From positions 1 to 22,019 of IMG/VR virus record IMGVR_UViG_3300025769_013847: a stretch of 22,019 nt of DNA; one strand, written 5' to 3'. A model generated the notes under the pieces. It was not told where the DNA came from, made no database searches, and was given only the letters and a program-made list of their open reading frames with translations. The DNA comes from a virus. Positions 3,050-18,157 of this stretch are shown piece after piece (within the stretch, counting starts at the first letter, position 1; each line of letters opens with the position of its first letter). A program made the position numbers and the translations under genes.

Positions 3050-4414
3050 TCACAATCCTCCTATTTCTGATTGCTCTGGTATATCTTCCTCGTGAACAAC
3101 GCTTGCTGGGTCAATAAATCGAACCCTTGGAGCGTCAAAAGTGAGCCGTGCCGCCGCTGGACTACCATCCCTGACCTTAGCCATTGCAAGGACGGCATCG
3201 TCGCCGCGATAGCCTTGGTCGTTTTTTGGCCTATGCAACAGCATCACGATTTCAGCGTCTTTTTCGATTTGGTCCGAACCTGCAATCTCATTGATCTTGG
3301 GTGACCGATTTTCCTCTGCGGACTTTCGGTTGACTTGAGCAAGGGCGCATAAGTGCGGTCCATACCTCTTAGGGAGTGCCGAGAGCTTTTGAGATGTGTC
3401 TTTGATCTGCTCATGCGTGGCCGAAAGATTGCCCTGGTATCGAACGATCTGGATGTAATCCAAGAACACGCACGCCACCTGGTGCCGCTTAACTGCGGTG
3501 CGAATCAGCCTCTCGATATCGTCAACCGTGGCTCCAGGTGCAAAAGCAATCCAAAAGGGAGTAGTGCTTAGTTGCTCGTAAAAGGCTTTGACCTTCTCTT
3601 TCTGCTCTTGGGTAAGCTTTGCTCGCCTTATAACCCTGGCATCGATCCCTGTGGCATTAGCCGCTAGCCGGTTAATAATCGCATCCCTGGACATCTCAAT
3701 TGAGATAAACAGACAAGGGATTCGATGGGCAAAGCACATCTGATACAGGAACGACAAGCCAAGTGCCGTCTTGCCCTCTGACGGCCTCGCAGCAACCACA
3801 GACATCGTTTTCAAGGGGAGCCCGTCACACACCCCATCAACAGACCGGAAGCCAGTCGTCAAACCCGACAAGTCAGAGCCCTTTTTCATTTGCTCAACCA
3901 TGCTACGCTTCCAAGCCTCAGCCAAAGGCCCTCCACCCTCGATGAAAGCACCATGTTCAATTCCGATCTCTAAGCTATCTAGGATCGCTTTTAAATCGCT
4001 AGAGGTGTGAACACCCTCGGAAGCCGCGTTCAGGGCTTGCGCGGCAACCTGGACCACTTTACGGCGACTGTAGGACTCGGTGACGGCCTCAACTAGCTCG
4101 GGGTAGCACAAAGGGGAGCCGATTAGGTCTGGAGCCATCACCACAAAAGCGGGGCATCGGTCACCCGTTTTTTTGTGCCAAGCGACCATGAGCGAGGCGA
4201 TGTTGATTGGCAAAGATTCGCGAACCATCCCAGCCATAAGCTCGAACGCATCCCTCAGCCCTTGATGCTCGAAAACCTCAGCGTTCACCAGGTTCGAAAC
4301 CTCAAGGAAAATATCGAGCCCCCCGATAGCGCAGCAACCGATTAGAGCCATCTCTGCGGGGTGCTCTTTCGCTTCAGCAAGCTCAAGGGTAAATTTTGCC
4401 GGTTCGTGGGTCAT
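3050..4414 (-). CDS. dnaB: Replicative DNA helicase, DnaB type
   Basis: The 454-residue protein has the two-domain DnaB layout. Residues about 15-115 are the helical N-terminal domain (HPAEMALIGCCAIGG). The RecA-like motor starts near 185 with the Walker A motif ARPSEGKT at 209-216, IEMS at 239-242 with the catalytic Glu240, Walker B FLDY at 317-320, the sensor-like AQVNR at 359-363, the GSDQIEKDAE segment at 379-388, and KVRDG at 413-417 bearing the finger-type Lys/Arg. It unwinds DNA at the fork as a hexamer. The ATG overlaps the stop of the initiator gene by ATGA, so initiator and helicase are coupled, as in phages that load their own helicase. Codons 134-137 contain one copy of the 12-bp palindrome (4004-4015). 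Confidence 0.93.
   Translation of the reverse strand: MTHEPAKFTLELAEAKEHPAEMALIGCCAIGGLDIFLEVSNLVNAEVFEHQGLRDAFELMAGMVRESLPINIASLMVAWHKKTGDRCPAFVVMAPDLIGSPLCYPELVEAVTESYSRRKVVQVAAQALNAASEGVHTSSDLKAILDSLEIGIEHGAFIEGGGPLAEAWKRSMVEQMKKGSDLSGLTTGFRSVDGVCDGLPLKTMSVVAARPSEGKTALGLSFLYQMCFAHRIPCLFISIEMSRDAIINRLAANATGIDARVIRRAKLTQEQKEKVKAFYEQLSTTPFWIAFAPGATVDDIERLIRTAVKRHQVACVFLDYIQIVRYQGNLSATHEQIKDTSQKLSALPKRYGPHLCALAQVNRKSAEENRSPKINEIAGSDQIEKDAEIVMLLHRPKNDQGYRGDDAVLAMAKVRDGSPAAARLTFDAPRVRFIDPASVVHEEDIPEQSEIGGL
4004..4015. promoter_or_regulatory. Operator-like palindrome (inverse copy inside dnaB)
   Basis: GGTGTGAACACC on the plus strand is the reverse complement of the intergenic site. It lies in codons 134-137 (GVHT) of the helicase. 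Like the other intragenic copy it is a candidate dispersed repressor site. Confidence 0.5.
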
Positions 4415-5199
4415 GCCAGAAAATCTTTCAAGTCGATCTGGTCAGCCTGCTTCTCGGGCTTGCTCCTGGCCTGCTGAGCCATCGCCCTCTGATCGGGCTC
4501 GAAGATCCCTTGCCATTCGCACTCAAGCGACTTGGACACAGACGCGATTGCGCCAGCCGTCCCGAAGCTCGACAACTTTTTGAGCTGTCGACCGAAGAAA
4601 ACAGCGGGCTCTTGGGTGATCTTTTTGAGCCTAAATCGGAAGCTCACCCACTGCTCAAATAGCTCGACAAATTCAGGGTTGTTTTTCAGCCCTCCAGGCC
4701 ACTCCATTTCCAGCACCTCGAGCCAAGATTTTTCGGCAGTCCGTTTCGGTTTTGCCTTTGGCTTTTCCTCACGCGCTTCTTTATTCCTTAAGGGGATTAC
4801 TTTAAGGGGAGTACCTTTGTAGGTCTCATTTGGTAGGGGTCCCCTACCCTCATTTGGTAGGGGTGTCCTATCTACTTTGGTAGGGGTACCAAATAAGGGT
4901 ATAGGTCCATTTGGTAGGGGTGCTATACCCTCATTTGGTAGGGGTAAGGGTGTTTCCGCAATGCTGTAAACCGCTGTTTTCCCTGGCCGTTTTTGCACGC
5001 TGAGAACGTCCAAATCGACCAAGATTTTCAAGCTCGATCTGACTGTGTTTGCACTCAATCTACATGCCTCAGCAATGGTCGGGAGTGATGCGTAGCAACT
5101 CCCCCTTCTTGCCACATGACAAGCCACTCTGAACTCTTGAGATGTAAGCCTCATTTCGTCAATCCAAGCCGGAATAAATAGCGGTTCCCTTTTCATCAA
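4411..5199 (-). CDS. Winged-helix replication initiator
   Basis: This is a 262-residue protein. Residues about 15-80 form a winged helix-turn-helix (LTSQEFRVACHVARRGSCYA, then AEACRLSANTVRSSLKILVDLD), as in phage O-type or helicase-loading replication proteins. Residues about 85-125 are a Pro-rich low-complexity linker with repeated PLPNE units, encoded by five 15-bp DNA iterons. The C-terminal half (about 158-262) has the aromatic and charged pattern of DnaD- or O-like helicase-contact regions and ends in a short acidic tail. It lies between rusA and dnaB with ATGA overlaps on both sides. By analogy with lambda O, the protein probably binds the repeats inside its own gene and recruits the helicase. 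Family assignment rests on motif reading and context. Confidence 0.8.
   Translation of the reverse strand: MMKREPLFIPAWIDEMRLTSQEFRVACHVARRGSCYASLPTIAEACRLSANTVRSSLKILVDLDVLSVQKRPGKTAVYSIAETPLPLPNEGIAPLPNGPIPLFGTPTKVDRTPLPNEGRGPLPNETYKGTPLKVIPLRNKEAREEKPKAKPKRTAEKSWLEVLEMEWPGGLKNNPEFVELFEQWVSFRFRLKKITQEPAVFFGRQLKKLSSFGTAGAIASVSKSLECEWQGIFEPDQRAMAQQARSKPEKQADQIDLKDFLA
4788..4810. repeat. Pair of TTAAGGGGA direct repeats beside the iterons
   Basis: TTAAGGGGA occurs at 4788-4796 and 4802-4810, 14 bp apart, directly next to the iteron array and inside the initiator coding sequence. The pair may be a secondary element of the candidate origin or a by-product of repeat expansion in the linker codons. 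Confidence 0.45.
4826..4945 (-). repeat. Five 15-bp iterons, candidate replication origin
   Basis: On the plus strand the unit is TCATTTGGTAGGGGT. Copies lie at 4826-4840, 4850-4864, 4873-4887 (two changes), 4907-4921 (one change) and 4931-4945. Start-to-start spacing is 24, 23, 34 and 24 bp, i.e. roughly two helical turns apart or one extra turn. All point the same way and all sit in the linker region of the initiator gene, where they encode the PLPNE repeats. Phage lambda has its origin iterons inside gene O in the same way. No strongly AT-rich unwinding tract directly abuts the array, which is a weakness. Confidence 0.7.
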
Positions 5200-5627
5200 T
5201 CCACCAACTCAAGATAAATGAACACCCCTGGATGGACTTTAGCCCACTCCTTAGTAACGGCTAATGAAGTCAGATAAGAGTCATCATCAACCCGCCCAGA
5301 ATCGACCATTGCATCGATGACGGCCTTGGCTAGGTTGTCAACGTCGGGCTTTTGAGTGTGGACCCCTGGCGCGGCATCCCGCAGAATGTGGGCATTCTTA
5401 CCGGTCCTGTAGTGGGCCTTAGGTCTTGGCAAATGGAATTCCAAGGCTAGCTTGTAAGGCCCTTGACTAACGCCCATCTTGAGCCGTGTAAGAGACTTGA
5501 CAGCCGCTTTCCACATGTCAGCAGTGTCAGGAGTGTAAACTCTGGCTTGCTTTCCAAAAGATCTAGCCTTGACCCTTGGCTGAGCCACGGGGACGCCTTC
5601 GACGAAGTAAGACACTAAGTTACCCAT
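5196..5627 (-). CDS. rusA: RusA-family Holliday junction resolvase
   Basis: The protein is 143 residues, the usual RusA size. The diagnostic segment KPDVDNLAKAVIDAM lies at residues 93-107, followed by DDD at 114-116. Asp95, Asp97 and an Asp of the DDD run supply the metal-binding carboxylates of this family. The N-terminal part (FVEGVPVAQPRVKAR) matches the strand and basic patch usual in RusA. It should cut four-way DNA junctions formed during phage recombination or replication, before packaging. Its ATG lies within an 8-bp overlap with the preceding small gene, and its stop overlaps the initiator start by ATGA. Confidence 0.93.
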   Translation of the reverse strand: MGNLVSYFVEGVPVAQPRVKARSFGKQARVYTPDTADMWKAAVKSLTRLKMGVSQGPYKLALEFHLPRPKAHYRTGKNAHILRDAAPGVHTQKPDVDNLAKAVIDAMVDSGRVDDDSYLTSLAVTKEWAKVHPGVFIYLELVD

Positions 5628-5802
5628 TCTTCACCTCGCTTCGTTCACGTTCCTCGCGGTCGATCTTTCTTTGCCATGCTTTGACATTGACCTCTGAGTT
5701 GATCTGCTCAACTTGCTGCTTTTTGGGATCGAGTTTGAGTGACCCTCTTTCCCAGCACTTGTCAGCCGCTCTCCGATACTTCTCTAGCTCTATTTCGTCC
5801 AT
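5620..5802 (-). CDS. Small highly charged hypothetical protein
   Basis: This 60-residue protein is rich in Glu, Lys and Arg, with one helical block (WQRKIDREERERSEV) at the C terminus. There are no recognised motifs. It starts within the last codons of the 54-residue upstream ORF (13-bp overlap) and ends inside the rusA start, so its place in the coupled operon is the strongest evidence for it. Confidence 0.6.
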   Translation of the reverse strand: MDEIELEKYRRAADKCWERGSLKLDPKKQQVEQINSEVNVKAWQRKIDREERERSEVKNG

Positions 5803-5954
5803 TTGCTTGACTGGTTGTGCGTTCTTTTAATTCGCTTCCAAATGTCCCGCCCTAAGATCTTTGCGGTGTTCACACCTCGTCCAAGATAAGGCATAGGCCC
5901 CTGGTGATTGATAGCCGCCATTCGATCAAACTGTCCGTAGTAGTTTGTGCTCAT
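5790..5954 (-). CDS. 54-residue hypothetical protein
   Basis: A 54-codon ORF fills the apparent gap between two longer genes. The ATG at 5954 overlaps the stop of the upstream gene as ATGA, and the 3' end overlaps the next gene by 13 bp, the same packing as the rest of the operon. It starts MSTNYYGQFDRMAAINHQGP and has a basic C-terminal part (GRDIWKRIKRTHNQSSKWTK). The family is unknown. One perfect GGTGTTCACACC palindrome lies within codons 27-30 (5865-5876). Confidence 0.65.
   Translation of the reverse strand: MSTNYYGQFDRMAAINHQGPMPYLGRGVNTAKILGRDIWKRIKRTHNQSSKWTK
5865..5876. promoter_or_regulatory. Operator-like palindrome GGTGTTCACACC (intragenic copy)
   Basis: This is an exact copy of the intergenic palindrome, inside the 54-residue early ORF. 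It is a candidate dispersed repressor site within the leftward operon. Confidence 0.5.
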
Positions 5955-6409
5955 AGCCAGTTGTCTCCCTCTACAGCACGCACCGATGGTGCGCTCTTAG
6001 TTGTTTTGAATGTCCCTGAGAGCAATGCTCGACAATCCTGCTTGCTGGCTTCCGCTGAAGCCTTCTTGCCTGTCTTGGCGTGATAGACCTTCTCAAGGCT
6101 GGGAAGTGAGACCTTGACGCATTTCAAGAACTCTTCAGGAGTCATCCCAACATGAGTCTTGAGAAGCTCATAGGCTTTCCCTGGATTTACGCTAGCCACT
6201 CGCTCAACGCCTTCCTTCAGGAAGTAGCCGCTAACTAGTCCGCCTTCCATCAAGGTTTGTTTGACATGATTCTTTATGTTATCGATTAACTTTTGGGCTT
6301 CAATGGCTTGGCCGTAAAGCCTACCCAATGCTTGAGGGTCTGAAGGCAATCCTGATTCAGGGATTGCAAGTTCAACGGATGCGAATTTTTCTAATTCCTG
6401 ATCACTCAT
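5951..6409 (-). CDS. Hypothetical protein of the recombination module
   Basis: The start is set at ATG 6409; a TTG at 6421 in the same frame lacks a good SD. The product is about 152 residues. Residues about 30-60 are helical (LYGQAIEAQKLIDNIKNHVK), followed by a compact region (SVNPGKAYELLKTHVGMTPE) and a Ser/Lys-rich tail ending in VEGDNWL. It follows the SSB-like and Sak4-like genes, a position where phages often keep nucleases or recombination accessories, but I see no nuclease motif. The function is open. Confidence 0.65.
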   Translation of the reverse strand: MSDQELEKFASVELAIPESGLPSDPQALGRLYGQAIEAQKLIDNIKNHVKQTLMEGGLVSGYFLKEGVERVASVNPGKAYELLKTHVGMTPEEFLKCVKVSLPSLEKVYHAKTGKKASAEASKQDCRALLSGTFKTTKSAPSVRAVEGDNWL

Positions 6410-6421
6410 ATCAATTTCCAA

Positions 6422-6898
6422 TTACCAAGGGACGTCATCTTCTTCCGGTTTCTCACTTGCTGGGCTTGCTGAGGCTGTTACAGCGCTCGAGGCCTGCTTA
6501 GGCTTGCTTGACGCTGGCCATTGATCCTTTTTCAGGTAATCTTTCACAACGTTCTTGACTCCTTGTGTTCCGTCTTCTCGCGTGTATGGCTTTCGGTCAA
6601 GAACAACATAGCCTTGCACTCCTTGGCAAAACGAAGCGTCAATACTGCCATTCATGTAAGTCTCGCCAAGCCCGGTACCATAGCAGAAGTGTCGAAGCTT
6701 TGCTGCCATTGCCTCCAGCAGCCAATCACGCACGACAGTTGTTGACCCATCGCTAGATGATGCGTAAAGCTTCAACTCAATCATTTCATTGCCTGACTTG
6801 CTCACTTTGTCCTCTGCTGATGTCACTTGAAACGGGTAGGTTCCAGCAGGGAAAACATTAAACCCTAATTCTTCTTCTTTTTTTGGTGTGAACTGCAT
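6422..6898 (-). CDS. SSB-like ssDNA-binding protein (DUF669 type)
   Basis: The start is ATG 6898, two bases after the ATPase stop, with AAGGA about eight bases upstream; the open frame further upstream is a shadow of the ATPase gene. The 158-residue product begins MQFTPKKEEELGFNVFPAGT, typical of the DUF669 group of phage single-strand binding proteins, and has an OB-fold-like beta-rich body (MIELKLYASSSDGSTTVVRD). A Ser/Ala/Lys-rich linker leads to the acidic tip EEDDVPW, which resembles the DDDIPF tip of bacterial SSB used to recruit partners. It should coat single strands and work with the neighbouring RecA-like ATPase in strand annealing. Family naming is from memory of the sequence style. 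Confidence 0.78.
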   Translation of the reverse strand: MQFTPKKEEELGFNVFPAGTYPFQVTSAEDKVSKSGNEMIELKLYASSSDGSTTVVRDWLLEAMAAKLRHFCYGTGLGETYMNGSIDASFCQGVQGYVVLDRKPYTREDGTQGVKNVVKDYLKKDQWPASSKPKQASSAVTASASPASEKPEEDDVPW

Positions 6899-6899
6899 A

Positions 6900-7751
6900 T
6901 CAGTGTCCTTGTAAGTGCTTGATGATTTTCTCGACCTTCTCTTCCGATGCGTCTTGGAATGATTCCACCCCAAGCTTCTTAAGCCATCCCGCTTGCTTGT
7001 CTTCGGTAATCGAGAGTCGCTCAATAAGCGAATTGAGAACACCCAGTTGTTGCGCGGTGGCGTAATTGTAGGCAGAGACATTCGCCTCAAGCCTTCCCTT
7101 GCCAAACCTCTCGGCAAACTCTTCGTAACACCAGGGGAACCCTTCCCCAACGACAAAGCCTTCCTCTCGGCTTTTGATTGGGATTGCAAGTCTCTGCGGT
7201 CCCGTGTGTGTGATCTGCAAGGCAAGGTTGAGTTCGTAGTCTGTTTTGTCCCAGCCGTCAGCACCCCATCCTACTTGTTCGCCATTGGACCACTTAGCGG
7301 CCTGGTGGTGAATCAAGATAGTGTTCATGTCGAGCCTGTCACAAGCTGAAATCAGCGAGCGCATGAACGCAACAGGAGGTTTCTTGGACGCTCCGAATGC
7401 GTCTTTGTCCCCTAGCCTCTCTTGCTCTGCTGTAAGTATCGAGCCCCACAACTTAGAGACCGAATCTATCACAAGGGTTTTATAATCGTGACCCCCAAGT
7501 GAAAGCTCTCTAATCTCATTCAATACTTCTTTGGGTGCGTTCGCTCCTTCATCTGGTCCGAAGTACATGCCGCCATGCTCCTCTAGCCGCTTCATGTAGG
7601 CCGGAAGCTGGTTGCCTGGTTCTGTGCAAATGTAATAGACGCCAGGAAACCCCATTGCTCCCCAAGTTTTCCCGACACCCGGAGCCCCAAAAATTGAAAT
7701 CTTTGCTCTCGATTGTTTGGCCGCTGTTGGCTTAATTGCTTTTAATGGCAT
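6900..7751 (-). CDS. RecA-like ATPase, Sak4-type recombination protein
   Basis: The 283-residue protein has a Walker A motif at 22-29 (GAPGVGKT), a Walker B strand near 92-97 (KTLVIDS), and a conserved polar segment (NTILIHHQ) near residue 145, the minimal RecA-core layout of Sak4-like phage proteins. These ATPases support single-strand annealing together with a phage SSB, here encoded immediately downstream. The C-terminal 70 residues are helical (NSLIERLSITEDKQAGWLKK) and may contact DNA or SSB. The ATG at 7751 has AAAGGA about seven bases upstream. Confidence 0.85.
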   Translation of the reverse strand: MPLKAIKPTAAKQSRAKISIFGAPGVGKTWGAMGFPGVYYICTEPGNQLPAYMKRLEEHGGMYFGPDEGANAPKEVLNEIRELSLGGHDYKTLVIDSVSKLWGSILTAEQERLGDKDAFGASKKPPVAFMRSLISACDRLDMNTILIHHQAAKWSNGEQVGWGADGWDKTDYELNLALQITHTGPQRLAIPIKSREEGFVVGEGFPWCYEEFAERFGKGRLEANVSAYNYATAQQLGVLNSLIERLSITEDKQAGWLKKLGVESFQDASEEKVEKIIKHLQGH

Positions 7752-7775
7752 AATTTTTCCTTTGTTCTGTTATTC

Positions 7776-8234
7776 CTACACGTCTCCGAAGCACTTGCCG
7801 AAATATTGGCGAAACCAAACAAGCTTGTATTCTTCATCCTCAAGCTCTTTCCGTTTCTTCTCGATGCTTTTCTCAAGGTTCTTCTCAGCACTTGCTCGAA
7901 TCTCCCCTAACCCTTCGATGTCAATTTCTTCAGTTTTAACTATCTCAGCGTCATCAGTCTTGTTATTGATCGATTTGAATTTGATGTTTGTTCCCGAGTA
8001 ATCAGACTCAATATAGCAAACTGTGACCGTTGGCAGCTCACTGAACTTGTCGAAGTGGGAAATAATCCCGTTGTGAGCTTTGTAGTTGCTATACTCTTTT
8101 ACAAGTATACGAACATGGTCGCCAACCTTCAAAGCCTCATCGCTTTGACTGGATGACTTGATTCGAACGCCTTTAATTTCAACGCTACCACTCTCTAGCG
8201 TTCCTTCCATTTGTATCTTTGTCTCTATGCTCAT
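7776..8234 (-). CDS. Hypothetical protein, beta-barrel plus coiled coil
   Basis: In this 152-residue protein, residues about 34-85 (LKVGDHVRILVKEY, then AHNGIISHFDKFSE) look like an SH3/KOW-type barrel. Residues about 105-140 are a charged coiled coil (RASAEKNLEKSIEKKRKELE). It starts in an ATGA overlap with the upstream gene, with GAGGA just before. No enzymatic motif is visible. The tandem of barrel and coiled coil suggests an oligomeric binding protein, which is inference. Confidence 0.65.
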   Translation of the reverse strand: MSIETKIQMEGTLESGSVEIKGVRIKSSSQSDEALKVGDHVRILVKEYSNYKAHNGIISHFDKFSELPTVTVCYIESDYSGTNIKFKSINNKTDDAEIVKTEEIDIEGLGEIRASAEKNLEKSIEKKRKELEDEEYKLVWFRQYFGKCFGDV

Positions 8235-8452
8235 TGTTTTTCCTCTAGTTGAATTCGTAATTGTCTCTTGTCCTCTAGCAACTTGGCGTTCAAGTCGCTG
8301 TATTCCTCAATCGTCTGTTCAAGCCTCAAGATTTCCCGCCTTAGTGCTTGCTTGTCTGCTTCATGGGCGTCCTCATCATCCATGATAACCCGCTGGTCAA
8401 TCGCTTGCTCCTCGCTAAAAGACAAGGGCTTAAATCTATCCAGTCGTGCCAT
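8231..8452 (-). CDS. Small coiled-coil protein
   Basis: This is a 73-residue protein with a Met-Asp-rich middle (VIMDDEDAHEAD) and a clear coiled coil at about residues 35-72 (REILRLEQTIEEYSDLNAKL). It starts in a TAATG one-base overlap with the upstream gene and ends in an ATGA overlap with the next, so it is part of the coupled early operon. The function is unknown. Confidence 0.65.
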   Translation of the reverse strand: MARLDRFKPLSFSEEQAIDQRVIMDDEDAHEADKQALRREILRLEQTIEEYSDLNAKLLEDKRQLRIQLEEKQ

Positions 8453-8859
8453 TAGTCCTCTTTCGCTTCCTTCTCAAACTGCATTTGAATTTGGAAGTCT
8501 TGAGGGTTCATCGGAACAGTATCGACTCGTTCAAGCGTCTCTTCATCGTAGAAGTATTTCACTTTTCCTGGAGGGTTGAGAACAACCGCAAATTGCTTAA
8601 CCCTCATCTCACCGCCCTTACGAACCATTGCTGCAAGTGCGTTCTGATCTGCAATCAAGTTCTCAAGCTCCGCTTTCATAGTGGCTTTCATCTGTTTGAA
8701 CTTTTCCTCGTGATCTTGAGTCTGCCGCATTGCCTCAGCTAGCTCATCGCTGTTTGCAACTCTTTCCTCATCCGTGAATCGGTGTTCAACTTGAATATCC
8801 TCCCTGAGTAGTGGTTGGGGGACAATGTATAGGTCTTCGAGTTTCTTTGCTTTTGTCAT
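8452..8859 (-). CDS. Hypothetical early phage protein
   Basis: The 135-residue protein has a helical middle at about residues 38-80 (DELAEAMRQTQDHEEKFKQM) and a C-terminal beta segment (RVKQFAVVLNPPGKVKYFYD) followed by LERVDTVPMNPQDFQIQM. That C-terminal layout recurs in small phage early proteins, but I cannot name a family. No SD is visible before the ATG at 8859, so translation may rely on the short gap after the Gly-rich ORF. Confidence 0.65.
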   Translation of the reverse strand: MTKAKKLEDLYIVPQPLLREDIQVEHRFTDEERVANSDELAEAMRQTQDHEEKFKQMKATMKAELENLIADQNALAAMVRKGGEMRVKQFAVVLNPPGKVKYFYDEETLERVDTVPMNPQDFQIQMQFEKEAKED

Positions 8860-8883
8860 GATGTTTGTTTTTAGGTTGTTTAT

Positions 8884-9090
8884 TTATTCGCCATAGCCAG
8901 AGCCAGAGCCATCTCCAGAGCCAGAGCCATTGCCATCGCCATAGCCATCGCCATCGCCATAGCCATCGCCATCGCCAGAGCCATCTCCACAGCCAGAGCC
9001 ATAGCCATATCCAGAGCCATAGCCATAGCCAGAGCCAGAGCCATAGCCAGAGCCATCGCCATAGCCAGAGCCATCAATTATCTCGTCCAC
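8884..9090 (-). CDS. Gly-X dipeptide-repeat protein
   Basis: The 68-residue product starts at GTG 9090 (AAGG about seven bases upstream) and overlaps the end of the DUF6948-like gene by 13 bp. After a short DEIID lead, residues 7 to 67 alternate Gly with Ser, Tyr or Asp (GSGYGDGSGYGSGSGYGYGS and on). The DNA is a degenerate 6-bp tandem repeat, so two other frames are also open (Ala-Met and His-Ser/Arg repeats). The Gly-X frame is preferred for its placement in the operon, its SD and its natural stop. A flexible, tyrosine-bearing linker-like protein is expected; the function is unknown. It could also be non-coding repeat DNA. Confidence 0.55.
   Translation of the reverse strand: MDEIIDGSGYGDGSGYGSGSGYGYGSGYGYGSGCGDGSGDGDGYGDGDGYGDGNGSGSGDGSGSGYGE
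8888..9074. repeat. Degenerate 6-bp tandem repeat
   Basis: About 30 units of a CCATAG/CCAGAG/CCATCG-type hexamer run in register without a break. On the minus strand they read GGCTAT, GGCTCT, GGCGAT, i.e. Gly followed by Tyr, Ser or Asp. The strict hexamer phase means copy number can change by slippage without shifting the frame. Confidence 0.85.
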
Positions 9091-9467
9091 AAAGGCACCT
9101 TGCTTAAAGATTCTTGAGCCTTGCTAGTCATCGGGATGACCTCAATTGCTACAAGCTCAATTTCGTTGACAGCACAGGGAATCCTACAAGAATCCGGCTT
9201 GCTGGTGCCCTCCATTGCGAGCTGACTTAGCGATGCCGCCCCAGCCCATGCATGGACCCTTCTCGCTTGCCTCAAGGTCACTTCAATTCCCGCCAGTGTG
9301 CTTTCGCGCTTTGCTAGGTAGCCGTAGTGTACGCCTGCTGAGTAAGTGCGAATCATCACGAGATCGAGGCCGTCAACTTTACTTGCCATCTCGTCTCCCT
9401 CTGGAACGTAGGTGACTCCCTCTATTTCAATTTTATCAACTTTCATTTTATTCGTTTTTGCGTTCAT
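9078..9467 (-). CDS. DUF6948-like phage protein
   Basis: The 129-residue protein carries the string VMIRTYSAGVHYGYLAKRES, then LRQARRVHAWAGAASLSQLA and a C-terminal IELVAIEVIPMTSKAQESLS. This order of motifs matches what I remember as the DUF6948 family, common in the early regions of phages of many hosts. The fold is probably a small beta-rich domain; no activity is known. The start may be at 9467 or at the internal ATG 9446; the conserved part begins well after both. The stop overlaps the start of the Gly-X repeat gene. Confidence 0.8.
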   Translation of the reverse strand: MNAKTNKMKVDKIEIEGVTYVPEGDEMASKVDGLDLVMIRTYSAGVHYGYLAKRESTLAGIEVTLRQARRVHAWAGAASLSQLAMEGTSKPDSCRIPCAVNEIELVAIEVIPMTSKAQESLSKVPLWTR

Positions 9468-9484
9468 CGTTTTTGTTTTCAGGT

Positions 9485-9574
9485 TTAGAAGTAGCTTAGA
9501 ATCGTTGAGATGATTAGAAGCATAAGTGAGGCCCAGAATAGGCAGTTTTGAAAAGTATCCGACTTTCTACTCAT
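9485..9574 (-). CDS. 29-residue membrane peptide
   Basis: A 30-codon ORF lies in the gap between the excisionase-like gene and the DUF6948-like gene. Its ATG overlaps the upstream stop as ATGA, consistent with the operon pattern. The peptide has a polar N terminus (MSRKSDTFQN) and one hydrophobic segment from about residue 11 to 29 (CLFWASLMLLIISTILSYF), so it is probably a membrane peptide. Its length leaves real doubt, but position, overlap and hydrophobicity agree. Confidence 0.5.
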   Translation of the reverse strand: MSRKSDTFQNCLFWASLMLLIISTILSYF

Positions 9575-9771
9575 AGACTTGTGATTTTTTGAGGGTTGAT
9601 TGTTTTTGACTTGAGAACTTCGTTTACGTCGAATCTAACAATCTGCTTGTTGATTCGGATGAATGGAATTTTTCGTTGAGAAACCCATTCCGTTATTGTC
9701 CTCTCCGATACTTGCAGAATCTCTGCAAGCTGCTTTCTCTTCACGATTCGAGCGCCTTCAAGAAAACTCAT
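9571..9771 (-). CDS. Excisionase-family HTH protein
   Basis: The 66-residue protein is a compact winged/MerR-like HTH of the excisionase (HTH_17) type: RKQLAEILQVSERTITEWVS at about residues 12-31, then RKIPFIRINKQIVRFDVNEVL, where the family's strand-wing and arginine pattern is clear. Members direct excision by binding attP arms, or act as repressors. It starts in an ATGA overlap with the ribbon-helix-helix gene upstream and is separated from the integrase by about 0.8 kb. A role as Xis for the integrase is likely but not proven; a regulatory role is the alternative. Confidence 0.8.
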   Translation of the reverse strand: MSFLEGARIVKRKQLAEILQVSERTITEWVSQRKIPFIRINKQIVRFDVNEVLKSKTINPQKITSL

Positions 9772-9926
9772 TTCAAGCCCTCCTGAATGAATTGCCGAAT
9801 CACCGTGCTAACAGAGGAGTGCCCTTGCTTCTTGGCTAGTCCTAGTAGCTTTTTCCTCCATGCGCTAGGAGCCTTGAATGTGTAGGCGGCTAGCGTTGTT
9901 GGTTTTGTCGTTCTTCTGGTGGTCAC
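9768..9926 (-). CDS. Ribbon-helix-helix DNA-binding protein (GTG start)
   Basis: A 52-residue ORF reads from GTG 9926 to a TGA that overlaps the next ATG (ATGA). Its C-terminal 38 residues (AYTFKAPSAWRKKLLGLAKK then QGHSSVSTVIRQFIQEGL) have the CopG/Arc pattern: a short basic strand followed by two amphipathic helices with a polar turn. The N-terminal tail is basic and Thr-rich. An in-frame TGA lies just upstream of the GTG, so no longer form is possible; GAGG ends only one base from the GTG, an unusual spacing. One operator-like palindrome (9918-9929) overlaps its start codon. It is probably an auto-regulating repressor or anti-repressor. Confidence 0.68.
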   Translation of the reverse strand: MTTRRTTKPTTLAAYTFKAPSAWRKKLLGLAKKQGHSSVSTVIRQFIQEGLK

Positions 9927-9929
9927 ACC
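9918..9929. promoter_or_regulatory. Operator-like palindrome, one-base variant
   Basis: GGTGGTCACACC differs at one base from GGTGTTCACACC and lies 25 bp from the perfect copy, centre to centre. It overlaps the GTG start of the leftward ribbon-helix-helix gene, so binding here could block its translation start or promoter. Confidence 0.6.
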
Positions 9930-9942
9930 TCAACAGGTAATC

Positions 9943-9954
9943 GGTGTTCACACC
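9943..9954. promoter_or_regulatory. Operator-like palindrome GGTGTTCACACC (intergenic copy)
   Basis: This is an inverted repeat GGTGT-TC-ACACC with perfect 5-bp arms. It sits in the divergent region between two ribbon-helix-helix genes. A weak -35-like TTGCGC (minus strand, 9962-9957) would place this site in the spacer of a leftward promoter. Identical copies occur at 5865-5876 and, on the other strand, 4004-4015. Confidence 0.7.
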
Positions 9955-9969
9955 CAGCGCAAGAACTTT

Positions 9970-10073: not shown

Positions 10074-10319
10074 ATGCCGAACCAAAGAAATCCAGAAAAA
10101 ACACAAGTAAACGTATGGCTCCCTGACCACCTCAGTGACAAGCTGGAGGAGTTCCGTAGAGAGAAAGGACTCAGCAAAGCTGAAGCTCTAGCGCTTTTAA
10201 TAGGGCAGTCTCTTCCTGGCGTAGATCAAGCTGAAGTGGATCGAGTGATGGGGTGGAATTCTGAGAAGAAAGACTCGCTAAAGAAGCCAAAGAAGGCACC
10301 CAAGAAGAAGGAACAGTGA
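10074..10319 (+). CDS. Ribbon-helix-helix regulator with Lys-rich tail
   Basis: From ATG 10074 the product is 81 residues. Residues about 10-16 (TQVNVWL) give the DNA-contact strand, followed by two helices (PDHLSDKLEEFRREKG and LSKAEALALLIGQSL), the CopG/Arc/MetJ pattern. The C-terminal 15 residues are almost all Lys and Pro (LKKPKKAPKKKEQ), an added non-specific DNA clamp or degradation handle. The start is uncertain: the frame is open back to TTG 10008, with a perfect AGGAGG at 10036-10041 that is eight bases before an in-frame ATT (10050) and directly abuts a GTG (10041). It is transcribed divergently from the other ribbon-helix-helix gene and convergently with the integrase, so it is a candidate lysogeny repressor. 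Confidence 0.75.
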   Translation: MPNQRNPEKTQVNVWLPDHLSDKLEEFRREKGLSKAEALALLIGQSLPGVDQAEVDRVMGWNSEKKDSLKKPKKAPKKKEQ

Positions 10320-10459: not shown

Positions 10460-10597
10460 ATGACCACATTCTACCTATTTTTGTATATCGCTGGCTTCGC
10501 TTTTTCTTGCATCTGGCTTGCTTATCCGATAGTTGCAATGAACAGGCTCAAGAGCATTGACGAAAGCCTGAAACGCATCACTGGCGCGGAGAAATAG
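10460..10597 (+). CDS. 45-residue membrane peptide
   Basis: A plus-strand ORF begins MTTFYLFLYIAGFAFSCIWL, has one strong hydrophobic span (about residues 4-26) and a charged amphipathic tail (NRLKSIDESLKRITGAEK). Its end overlaps the 3' end of the convergent integrase gene by 20 bp. No SD is visible. The sharp division into membrane span and amphipathic helix argues for a real product, perhaps a lysogeny-expressed membrane peptide such as a superinfection-exclusion factor, but that role is only a guess. Confidence 0.4.
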   Translation: MTTFYLFLYIAGFAFSCIWLAYPIVAMNRLKSIDESLKRITGAEK

Positions 10598-11666
10598 CCA
10601 GCCAGCTTTCAGTATCCTCCTTGCTTACTAGCTCTCTGTAGACCCCTAGGAACACACTCGCAGAATGCCCTAGTTGCTCCGTTGCTTTCTCAATCCCATA
10701 CACGTTGTAGAAGTGGGAGGCCGCTGTTTTTCTCAGAGCATCATGAGGCCAGTTTTCAATCTCAGCGCTCTTTCTTAGAGCGTTGAATCTTCGCTTAAAG
10801 TTTGTAACCGGAACCCCATTGCCGGCCTTGATGCATTCCAGAGCTGGTTTTGTAAGGGTTACAATTCGACGGTTTCTAACTTTCGCCTTCTCGGCCTTCA
10901 GGAACACAAGCCCTCTCTTAATGTCGATTTCGCCCTCAGTGATCCTTAGGGCCTCCTCTGGTCTAATGCCACAAAACAAGGCCAGACCTAGATAGGTAAG
11001 CATCCCAAGGTCATCTACTGCTGCCACATCGACAAGCCTTTGACACTCCTCAACCGATAGGATCTGAGGGTCAACATGGGGCACCCTAACGCGCTCAACT
11101 CGCTGTGCTGGATTCTCGGCCAGATATCCCACTCGAACACAGTACGAAAAGAATGACGACAGCCGGTTGAGATGGGTTTGGCGAGTTGAAGGCGCTCCTT
11201 TTTTCGTGCTCAAATACTCTGAGACAAGCTTGTGATTGAGCTGGCTGATGTCCATCCCCTCCCGGTCCAGCACGAAAAGGCGAAGGCAAACACGCAACTG
11301 ATCAAGGTAAAGAGCCGAAAACCCTGCCGCCTTCTTGGCCTCTAAAAACTCATCTCGAGCATCCCCAAGCGTTCGGCCAGTCTTGGCGGCATGATGCTCT
11401 TTGAAAAAGGTCCAAACTTCGTCCAGAGAGACGTTTCGCTTGCTCATCTCTAAAAGCACCGTTGAGACCTTGGCTCGCTTTGATGGGGCCAATTGAGCCC
11501 ATACCCGCCCCGCTTCGTCCTTTTCCTCCTTGAAGAGCCGAAGAGCCGCTATTGCCTGCCCCTTGGTCTTGTAATACTTGCGCCGACGCTTGCCACCTAT
11601 CCTTCCAAAGTCTGCTTCCCAGCGAATCAGGGAGCCGTTAATGGTTACTTGAGTAGGCTTTGGCAT
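10578..11666 (-). CDS. int: Tyrosine-type phage integrase
   Basis: From ATG 11666 the product is 362 residues. The N-terminal part (TQVTINGSLIRWEADFGRIG) is an arm-binding-like beta region, residues about 100-190 a SAM-like core-binding domain (LGDARDEFLEAKKAAGFSAL), and the C-terminal half the catalytic domain with Arg235 (CGIRPEEA), HxxR at 308-312 (HDALR), His334 (LGHS) and the nucleophile Tyr343 (VYREL). It should recombine the attP beside it with a tRNA-Val gene. The frame is open to 11711, but those codons are the attP arm repeat (reading WSINGQ), so the internal ATG with an AGG eight bases upstream is preferred. It is transcribed leftward, convergent with the rightward regulator. Confidence 0.93.
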   Translation of the reverse strand: MPKPTQVTINGSLIRWEADFGRIGGKRRRKYYKTKGQAIAALRLFKEEKDEAGRVWAQLAPSKRAKVSTVLLEMSKRNVSLDEVWTFFKEHHAAKTGRTLGDARDEFLEAKKAAGFSALYLDQLRVCLRLFVLDREGMDISQLNHKLVSEYLSTKKGAPSTRQTHLNRLSSFFSYCVRVGYLAENPAQRVERVRVPHVDPQILSVEECQRLVDVAAVDDLGMLTYLGLALFCGIRPEEALRITEGEIDIKRGLVFLKAEKAKVRNRRIVTLTKPALECIKAGNGVPVTNFKRRFNALRKSAEIENWPHDALRKTAASHFYNVYGIEKATEQLGHSASVFLGVYRELVSKEDTESWLAISPRQ

Positions 11667-11680
11667 AATTGGCCTGAGAA

Positions 11681-11699
11681 ATTGACCATTTATTGACCA
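11681..11699. repeat. attP arm repeat, copy 1 (integrase side)
   Basis: ATTGACCATTTATTGACCA, itself two ATTGACCA units 11 bp apart. It is found just upstream of the preferred integrase start and is matched by two copies on the other side of the tRNA core, so it is a probable integrase arm-binding site. Confidence 0.7.
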
Positions 11700-11851
11700 C
11701 ATTGCGACCATTTTCTTGCTACCTAGCCGCTACCTCTCTCTAGCAAATGTAAGCAAGGGCAAATCGGAACACCCGCATAAGCAAAGGCGAAAGTCATTAA
11801 AGACCCGTAAATAAAGGCCATCGTCGACCTGTCCTGAAAAGAGACTAGGGC

Positions 11852-11899
11852 ACCTTGACACGGTAGGGGTCGGAGGTTCGAACCCTCCACCGCGCACCA
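11852..11899 (+). other. attP core: 3' part of tRNA-Val(GAC)
   Basis: The stretch reproduces the 3' half of a tRNA. It runs from the anticodon stem through the loop with anticodon GAC (11857-11859), the 3' anticodon stem, a five-base variable loop and the T arm (GGAGG, TTCGAAC, CCTCC at 11872-11888). The 3' acceptor strand follows (ACCGCGC, 11889-11895), then A and CCA (11896-11899). No matching 5' acceptor strand or D arm is present upstream, and base pairing stops after three pairs of the anticodon stem, so this is not a tRNA gene. Such a fragment next to an integrase gene is the standard attP core that rebuilds the target tRNA after insertion. Confidence 0.85.
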
Positions 11900-11968
11900 T
11901 TTTAACCCCATCTAAGCCAACGACTTAAATGCTTAGGCTGCCTGCCACACTCCGACCCCCTCTTAAGC

Positions 11969-11995
11969 CTATTGACCATTTATTGACCAAATTTG
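11969..11995. repeat. attP arm repeat, copy 2
   Basis: Contains the 19-bp arm repeat (11971-11989), and the identity with copy 3 extends to 27 bp. It lies about 70 bp beyond the tRNA core on the structural-gene side. Confidence 0.7.
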
Positions 11996-12261
11996 ATTGG
12001 TGGGAACCAAAGTCGTTCGATCTTTCACATTAAAAAAGAAAAAGCGCCACATCGATTGGATAGACCGATGGGACGCAGAATAGAGAGCCTGAAAGCCCTC
12101 AAAGTCGATGTTCAAGCCGACTGATATGAGGAGATAGATACTGCAGTTCTGGGCCGTTTTCAAGAGTGAATATTCATTTTTTGTATCCACGATTATTGAA
12201 GCTCTCTCCCGATCTGCCTTCCTTCACTTCCTTCCTTTGGGCTTAGAAAGCTCACTCAAGT
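11996..12261. other. Non-coding part of attP between arm repeats
   Basis: Between arm copies 2 and 3 I find no convincing gene. A 73-codon frame on the minus strand (12190 to 11969, GTG start) exists but has no SD, Phe-rich low-complexity stretches, and its last codons are the arm repeat. A short inverted repeat, CATCG and CGATG (12048-12068), and a GAATATTC palindrome are the only structures seen. The stretch may hold IHF- or accessory-protein sites. Confidence 0.45.
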
Positions 12262-12288
12262 CTATTGACCATTTATTGACCAAATTTG
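12262..12288. repeat. attP arm repeat, copy 3 (overlaps glycosyltransferase end)
   Basis: Contains the 19-bp unit at 12264-12282 and a 27-bp identity to copy 2. It also supplies the last codons of the glycosyltransferase gene (IWSINGQ, then stop), so the arm of attP and the end of a structural-side gene share DNA. Confidence 0.7.
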
Positions 12289-17689: not shown

Positions 17690-18157
17690 TTATTCGGAGC
17701 CCTCCAGAGCTTTTGCAATCCTTGCGATGTCCTCGAGCCTTGAGTCTAGCTCCTCCATCTTTGCTTGCAGTTCATCAGGCAGAGCAGTGGGGTTACTGTT
17801 GCCCTGGTAAGCCGCGAACGCTTGAACCGCTGCTGGCGCTAAGTCGCTAAGGAAATTTGCAATCACGCTATCAGGTGTCGCTGCTACTTCCGAAACGCCA
17901 ACGCCATAGTTCCAGCCATCCTTTCCAACTGACTCTTTGAGCTGGAGATCTTTCATTTCAAGCTTTTGACCAGCTATTCGAATTCCGCTTGAAAAGTCGA
18001 CATTGACAACCTTGTTGGTCTTTCCGTCGCCACCAATGTAAGCGGTTGACTGCTTAAGCGTGTGATGCCGATCACCACACGCAGACACAACAAGAAGCAC
18101 CAGGACGCAAAGCAAGACTGCTGTGAAATCGAAGATTGATAGGGCTCTTGCTTTCAT
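17690..18157 (-). CDS. Phage lipoprotein
   Basis: The 155-residue protein begins with a basic MKAR and a hydrophobic segment (IFDFTAVLLCVLVLLVVSAC) ending in a lipobox, VVSAC with Cys27, so it is expected to be lipid-anchored in the host envelope. The mature part has a beta-type middle (TNKVVNVDFSSGIRIAGQKL) and a helical C terminus (LQAKMEELDSRLEDIARIAK). Possible roles are spanin-like membrane disruption or superinfection exclusion. The unusual place, within the virion gene unit and just before a holin-like gene, favours the first. Lipobox recognition implies a bacterial Sec/Lsp pathway. Confidence 0.75.
   Translation of the reverse strand: MKARALSIFDFTAVLLCVLVLLVVSACGDRHHTLKQSTAYIGGDGKTNKVVNVDFSSGIRIAGQKLEMKDLQLKESVGKDGWNYGVGVSEVAATPDSVIANFLSDLAPAAVQAFAAYQGNSNPTALPDELQAKMEELDSRLEDIARIAKALEGSE

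Follow-up and report, generated by a model that had tools for sequence, protein, structure and literature searches.

A dispersed 12-bp palindrome in a phage sequence as a candidate operator of a small ribbon-helix-helix repressor

Judging from the excerpts of the literature on which we draw here and below, dispersed phage operators are already known, as in mycobacteriophage L5 and in SP-beta, and so are viral ribbon-helix-helix (RHH) regulators that act at multiple sites. In L5, a Cluster A mycobacteriophage, more than 20 asymmetric 13-mers called stoperators are found at promoters and in short intergenic spaces; they are predicted to be bound by a monomer, their orientation matters, and the repressor of a relative is described as using two DNA-binding domains (PMC9283540). 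The archaeal-virus protein F55 is described as a promoter repressor in the lysogenic state (PMC5569661), and the Kpn2I controller protein gives a precedent for a small regulator that acts as an elongation roadblock (PMC6237814). Here we describe a 12-bp palindrome, GGTGTTCACACC, in the 22,019 bases of the IMG/VR virus record IMGVR_UViG_3300025769_013847 (below, the window), a complete record classed as linear; all window counts cover that record. The palindrome stands in the spacer of a predicted early promoter and again inside two early genes. We think it likely that it is the operator of a small phage RHH repressor, and that the in-gene copies are extra sites which would reinforce the silence of the early genes.

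Copies of the palindrome in the window and in a relative

An original prediction, made from the letters of the window alone, had listed three perfect copies of the palindrome and a one-base variant. A search of the whole window with the pattern GGTGTNNACACC finds exactly these: GGTGTTCACACC, on either strand, at 4004, 5865 and 9943 (the last is called O1), and a copy with one mismatch at 9918 (O2; full coordinates are given in Table 1). As had also been said, two of the four lie in the regulator region, and the copies at 4004 and 5865 are inside leftward coding genes; the central dinucleotide of the 4004 site is opposite on the coding strand. The three exact copies are far above chance. With ten fixed bases, 0.008-0.016 perfect copies are expected in the window (Markov orders 1-4), so the 0.02 given earlier was slightly generous, and the exact 12-mer on either strand is expected 0.0014-0.0032 times under the same orders. 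When the 17 early genes were shuffled, the two coding copies compared with a mean of 0.04 in synonymous shuffles, and two copies were reached in 1 of 3000 synonymous and in none of 3000 codon-order shuffles. Allowing up to two mismatches in GGTGTNNACACC gives 8 matches versus a shuffle mean of 5.6, and 8 are reached in 20 of 100 shuffles; the four extra matches with two mismatches are at chance level. The looser GGTGNNNNCACC is confined to the same four places. Over 8 whole bacterial genomes (about 27 Mb combined), GGTGTKMACACC has 2 matches and a reversed control pattern has 3. As a side observation, GGTGNNNNCACC is absent from 586 kb of sequence (40 phage loci, L092-L131), where eleven other spacings, 0 to 11, average near 10 copies.

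The copies in the regulator region look like promoter operators, because the palindrome fills the 17-bp spacer of the predicted promoter of an RHH gene. Read on the minus strand, the order is TTGCGC, TG, O1, GAT and TACCTG, and then O2, 25 bp past O1, on the start codon of the leftward gene RHH1. If this predicted promoter (9918-9962) is right, the RHH1 mRNA would begin almost at its GTG codon; an ATG is also close behind the -10 hexamer in two of the loci described below (L015 and an Akkermansia phage), and such mRNAs may be leaderless. Rfam gave no match at its thresholds. The in-gene exact copies lie 4.1 and 5.9 kb beyond the promoter sites in the same leftward block of genes, which, we infer, form one operon from RHH1 through the helicase gene.

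Relatives of the phage had been proposed as a check. A pattern search in G002, a distant relative (record of 34,204 bases, helicase 71% identical), gave three exact 12-mers, at 27226, 32780 and 33695, and two copies with one mismatch, at 22139 and 29098. We did not count 22139 as a site: it is in the integrase gene and its outer arm is broken. The remaining four are all on the early side of the RHH region of G002. Copy 27226 is the counterpart of the 5865 site in the 54-aa gene, in which RGVNT is the sole run of at least four codons identical between the two phages. Copy 29098 is the counterpart of the 4004 site in the helicase gene and keeps 9 of the 10 fixed bases, with a change of residues from GVHT to GGNT. 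Copies 32780 and 33695 are without a window counterpart, and the window homologue of the gene with 33695, recognised by eye, lacks a site. All six in-gene copies of the two phages, 29098 included, share one reading frame. The homologous promoter of G002 reads TTGTGC, GA, GGTGCAAGCACC, TAT and TACTTT (3/6 and 3/6 consensus bases) before an RHH gene, and with two further palindromes at 24-bp steps there are three in all (GGTGCAAGCACC, GGTGCTTGCACC and GGTGATTCCACC).

Another contig, G001, is near-identical to the window (14 single-nucleotide polymorphisms, the first at 17937) and keeps all four sites; it is not independent evidence. Scans of viral contigs with the integrase, the Sak4-like protein, the helicase, RHH2 (see below) and the tail protein gave G001 and G002, the tail protein also G010, and the helicase alignment also the distant L011 (25%). 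In G010, whose tail protein is 49% identical, GGTGNNNNCACC is absent from the entire record of 37,419 bases, and profiles give no RHH match within 23,465 of these bases. The tail protein has no match in genome contigs or in 387 genomes, and neither the window (megablast) nor the tail protein (tblastn) matched the phage collection. A search with RusA returned 42 loci, 40 of them beyond the window phage and G002. None of these 40 has a homologue of the 54-aa gene or GGTGNNNNCACC, and an RHH match, a weak one, is seen in one of them (L106, E 0.0016); 7 have a clear match to the profile of the DnaB-like helicase, one more has a match at E 1e-5 and one is marginal.

RHH genes beside the palindrome

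Each of 11 RHH loci whose promoter regions we compared can be read as a TTG hexamer, a palindrome within a 17-bp spacer and a second hexamer. The hexamers are good (4-6 of 6 bases in the second) in L013, L065, L066, L067, L068, L073 and the Akkermansia phage, and weak in the window, G002, L015 and L078. In the unrelated phage L013, for example, TTGACA and TATAAT enclose a spacer with GGTGTTAACACC, a second copy follows 25 bp further on, and an RHH gene comes next. L015, whose RHH proteins are also carried by L017, has GGTGTTAACACC before a gene of the MPxxR type and carries it twice more, in frame, towards the end of the RHH gene that follows. Both L013 and L015 were found via the palindrome itself and are therefore a biased sample.

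A search that does not depend on the palindrome, by protein similarity to RHH2, gave 25 loci in 17 of 387 genomes, 10 of which we read as MPxxR-type. GGT-armed palindromes in at least two copies are present in 6 of these 10 loci and in none of the 15 others. At least three copies of a palindrome occur in 5 of the 25 RHH loci; among 600 control windows taken at unrelated phage loci, one has that many and 71 have at least two. Since three of the six positive loci (L065-L067) are close relatives of the Akkermansia phage, the independent cases are the Akkermansia group with GGTGGTKMACCACC, L068 with GGTGATTATCACC, L073 with GGTTTAACAAACC and L078 with GGTGGNNNNCCACC; the promoter copy of L073 precedes the second of two MPxxR genes. 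Counted over whole genomes, GGTGATTATCACC occurs 3 times in a genome of 4.7 Mb and GGTGGTKMACCACC occurs 2, 3 and 3 times in genomes of 2.9-3.1 Mb, where the reversed GGTGGTKMACCACC has 1, 1 and 0 copies; all 11 copies in the four genomes fall in the RHH locus. In L015, the Akkermansia phage and L073, two copies lie in frame within a later gene; L068 has one copy in such a gene and another just past its end. At several related loci of the Verrucomicrobiota type, a similar protein goes with a palindrome of its own, found upstream of the RHH gene and again in or after the following gene, and operators within the transcript may be a general habit of these RHH systems. What distinguishes the window phage and G002 is that copies are dispersed about 4-10 kb into early coding sequence. 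The multi-site repressor system that had been proposed is thus supported, for an RHH protein, by operators in promoter spacers, by the same design in other phages and by the 12-mer in the relative.

Next, we asked which protein would read the palindrome. The divergent RHH2 is the best candidate and looks likelier than RHH1. We set its start at the ATG at 10074 because homologues begin with MP(N/S/R)xR. It matches the PHROG 4738 repressor (E 3.4e-4), 4 of the 11 members of its family alignment match RHH_1, and the family profile matches the archaeal-virus repressor SvtR (PDB 2kel, E 7.6e-8); the RHH2 of the window alone has no Pfam or NCBIfam match. Its AlphaFold model is weak (mean predicted local distance difference test, pLDDT, 57.6), with helices at 18-31 and 35-44 and no strand formed, and another model (pLDDT 66.2) is likewise too weak to use. 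Three strand residues of RHH2 and its homologues were compared at the contact positions of Arc. They are Q-N-W in the RHH2 of the window, in RHH2a of G002 and in L015, N-T-A in RHH2b of G002, and Q-S-W in the Akkermansia phage. Q-N-W proteins occur together with GGTGTNNACACC in the window and L015 and, if they are rightly paired with the dispersed sites, in G002; as L015 was found via the palindrome, this pairing is a weak test. A candidate operator stands at the predicted promoter of the homologue itself in L015, the Akkermansia phage, L065-L068, L073 and L078, and the window sites are at the divergent RHH1 promoter. The excisionase-like protein had been named as a further possible reader, and nothing that we found points to it.

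Several observations weigh against operators of one RHH repressor, or against RHH2 as the protein that binds them. The promoter hexamers of the window match the consensus at just 5 of 12 bases, a consensus promoter scan misses the predicted early promoter, and the 5 promoter-like sites that it reports are at chance level. O1 and O2 lie more than 110 bp before the RHH2 start, at the promoter of the divergent RHH1. L013 has GGTGTTAACACC at its RHH promoter and no match to the MPxxR profile, so that another type of RHH protein can accompany the palindrome. In G002 the three promoter palindromes differ from the dispersed sites, which have the window 12-mer, and it is not certain that one protein reads them all; the RHH2 paralogues (QINAW and NITVA) could split the job. 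At the 54-aa site the conservation of codons is suggestive and no more when taken alone, as codons for the same residue are identical in 0.41-0.47 of cases. Four MPxxR-type loci (L069, L072, L077 and L084) are without the GGT palindrome family. Dispersed copies are found only in the window phage and G002; in the records of the Akkermansia phage, L013 and L015/L017, all copies sit together at a single place. Of six viral contigs with close double sites, three (L012, L014 and L016) have them away from RHH genes. A search of all bacterial genomes gave 35 loci with such double sites, many of them coding repeats; the four RHH profiles, which are narrow, match none of these loci (14 were also viewed by eye), and the search lends no support to a general link of close double sites to RHH genes. 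Separately, tandem repeats of the GGTGTNNACACC type with steps of 21-23 bp were seen in L016, L033, L038, L027, L043, L032, L036 and L056.

The window phage is probably temperate, because it has an integrase and a probable, tRNA-derived attP core. The core has matches in 86 of 387 genomes of one phylum (E up to 1e-5), and ARAGORN identified all five loci tested, of six fetched, as tRNA-Val genes (four with the anticodon GAC, one with CAC). This phylum appears to be Verrucomicrobiota, since three RHH loci there are near-identical to an Akkermansia phage. The core is kept in G002 (92% over 61 bp), and three pairs of TTGACCA repeats that flank it (11682-12288) resemble integrase arm sites. Among the other leftward genes, the O-like initiator gene has repeats of its own (CATTTGGTAGGGGT), and its G002 homologue encodes a different repeat. 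At 8884-9090, repeats of Gly/Tyr/Asp/Ser make up nearly all of an open reading frame (ORF), and the same strand has another repetitive frame.

Table 1. Positions of the palindrome copies and of the genes and sites discussed (HTH, helix-turn-helix)
Feature	Position	Strand	Basis or remark
Dispersed exact copy in the 54-aa gene (codons of GVNT)	5865..5876		G002 (L009:8516) has all 12 bases at the homologous position
54-aa gene with the 5865 site	5790..5954	-	ORF
Dispersed exact copy in the DnaB-like helicase gene	4004..4015		pattern match; G002 has GGTGGGAACACC at the same codons, amino acids changed
DnaB-like replicative helicase gene with the 4004 site	3050..4414	-	profile match
O1, copy of GGTGTTCACACC between the hexamers of the predicted leftward early promoter	9943..9954		TTGCGC + 17 bp with O1 + TACCTG on the - strand
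O2, one-mismatch palindrome overlapping the GTG start of RHH1	9918..9929		25 bp downstream of O1
Predicted -35 hexamer TTGCGC	9957..9962	-	3/6 consensus bases; absent from the consensus-scan output
Predicted -10 hexamer TACCTG	9934..9939	-	2/6 consensus bases
RHH2, MPNQR-type RHH protein, contact residues Q-N-W, predicted palindrome reader	10074..10319	+	similarity to homologues, family profile
RHH1, short CopG-like protein, first gene of the presumed leftward operon	9768..9926	-	weak RHH_1 (E 0.12), phrog_7325 (E 0.0034)
Excisionase-like HTH_17 protein, second gene of the presumed operon	9571..9771	-	profile match
Sak4-like protein	6900-7751	leftward	
RusA	5196-5627	leftward	
O-like initiator gene with its own repeats	4411-5199	leftward	
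Iteron-like repeats (CATTTGGTAGGGGT) in the O-like initiator gene, distinct from the palindrome	4827..4945		
Integrase	10578-11711		
Probable attP core, like the 3' portion of a tRNA-Val gene	11852..11903	+	closest genome match (94%, 52 bp) falls within a tRNA-Val(GAC) gene

Possible roles of the in-gene copies

We propose that a small RHH repressor encoded by the phage, most likely RHH2, would bind the palindrome. Bound at O1, between the predicted -35 and -10 hexamers, and at O2, it would silence RHH1 together with the excisionase-like gene and the replication operon; repression at the promoter is suggested by the geometry of the sites together with the known behaviour of RHH proteins. The copies in the 54-aa and helicase genes would be further binding sites for the same protein. 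When bound, they would most likely stall polymerase that has escaped from the promoter or reads in from elsewhere, and such stalling would reinforce the silence of the replication genes. Given that the in-gene sites are bound, a block to elongation is the role that we favour, because the copies lie downstream in the same leftward block and because in G002 the in-gene copies differ from the promoter operators; even so, we put it slightly below an even chance. Looping is rather unlikely, a decoy or some other role about equally so, and an internal promoter a little more unlikely still.

In a looping arrangement, RHH oligomers would bridge O1 and O2 with distant auxiliary operators and raise the local concentration of the repressor, for which the auxiliary lac operators are a parallel. 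It would suit this that in L015, the Akkermansia phage, L065, L066, L068 and L073 two sites lie about 300-480 bp beyond a promoter site (one such site in L067), and RHH dimers reportedly bind in a cooperative way to multiple sites (PMC5569661). On the other hand, the distances of 4.1-5.9 kb in the window and 3.6-10 kb in G002 are long for loops, and the difference between the promoter and dispersed sites of G002 appears to fit sites that act independently better than it fits loops. The 5865 site might instead be an operator at an internal promoter from which the RusA, O-like and DnaB genes are transcribed. Before it, at the distance that separates TTG and operator in the promoters, we see TTGGAC in the window and TTGCAC in G002, but there is no good -10 hexamer after it, the other four in-gene sites of both phages are without a TTG at that place, and the consensus scan reports no promoter at 5865 (the same scan also misses the predicted early promoter).

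Two explanations without a repressor have to be weighed as well. It seems improbable that the palindromes are binding sites for a replication initiator or a partition protein. The in-frame GGTGTTCACACC repeats of L016 form an iteron-like array in a gene that by eye resembles a replication gene, tandem arrays are found in some bacterial loci, and the in-gene sites of the window are in or near replication genes; yet the O-like genes of the window and G002 have other repeats of their own, O1 and O2 sit at an RHH gene, and no ParA-like gene was noticed, although no search was aimed at one. Least probable of all, in our view, is that the in-gene copies are due to chance or merely reflect conserved GVNT-like peptides. 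Their common reading frame would agree with this, but the copy counts are far above expectation and the G002 helicase keeps nearly all of the fixed bases across a change of amino acids.

The elongation block that we favour can be extended to a broader and more tentative proposal, which is somewhat more likely wrong than right. An RHH lineage of Verrucomicrobiota-type phages might use exact operators inside genes as elongation blocks, as an independent origin of the stoperator strategy; the palindrome arms and the three beta-strand contact residues would co-evolve (QxNxW with GGTGT), and the duplicated repressor of G002 would divide the promoter and the dispersed sites between its copies. If our main reading is right, silencing by dispersed operators has evolved with a DNA-binding fold that is among the smallest, and its sites are written into coding sequence. 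The comparative set (the window, G002, the Akkermansia prophages, L015, L068, L073 and L078) suits swaps of operators and contact residues as a means to study recognition and immunity specificity, and the system offers a simple test of whether an RHH protein bound to a palindrome can stop polymerase.

Comparison with described systems

In a literature search at the level of titles and abstracts, with little coverage of subscription journals, we found among the papers listed neither a phage RHH repressor with dispersed operators inside genes nor operators of RHH proteins from Akkermansia or Verrucomicrobia phages. Further parallels are the C1 operators of P1 and the matS sites of MatP. The archaeal-virus proteins SvtR, AvtR and F55 are likewise small RHH proteins of viruses, each with several sites on the genome of its virus; their sites are described as lying at or near promoters and have other sequences, and the part of the source used here makes no mention of exact copies inside genes (PMC5569661). 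In SP-beta, one master repressor, MrpR, and one motif, SPBRE, repeated over the prophage recall the present system, whereas the fold of MrpR is like a tyrosine recombinase and its listed targets are promoter regions (PMC10516654). Kpn2I differs in being a restriction-modification controller and not a phage RHH protein.

The original prediction had compared the dispersed copies with the stoperators of L5. As in L5, putative repressor sites are found at promoters with more of them across the genome, and the L5 sites are proposed to halt both initiation and elongation (PMC9283540). Their number, two dispersed exact copies in the 22-kb window and three exact and two one-mismatch copies in the 34-kb G002, is far below the more than 20 of L5. 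While the L5 site is asymmetric and oriented, the sites here are 12-bp palindromes with both orientations of the central dinucleotide, so that a fixed orientation does not apply; the copies at 4004 and 5865 are inside genes and not in short intergenic spaces; and in place of a monomeric HTH repressor we predict an RHH protein as the reader. The window sites are thus not L5 stoperators, and it is as a way of working that the comparison stays plausible.

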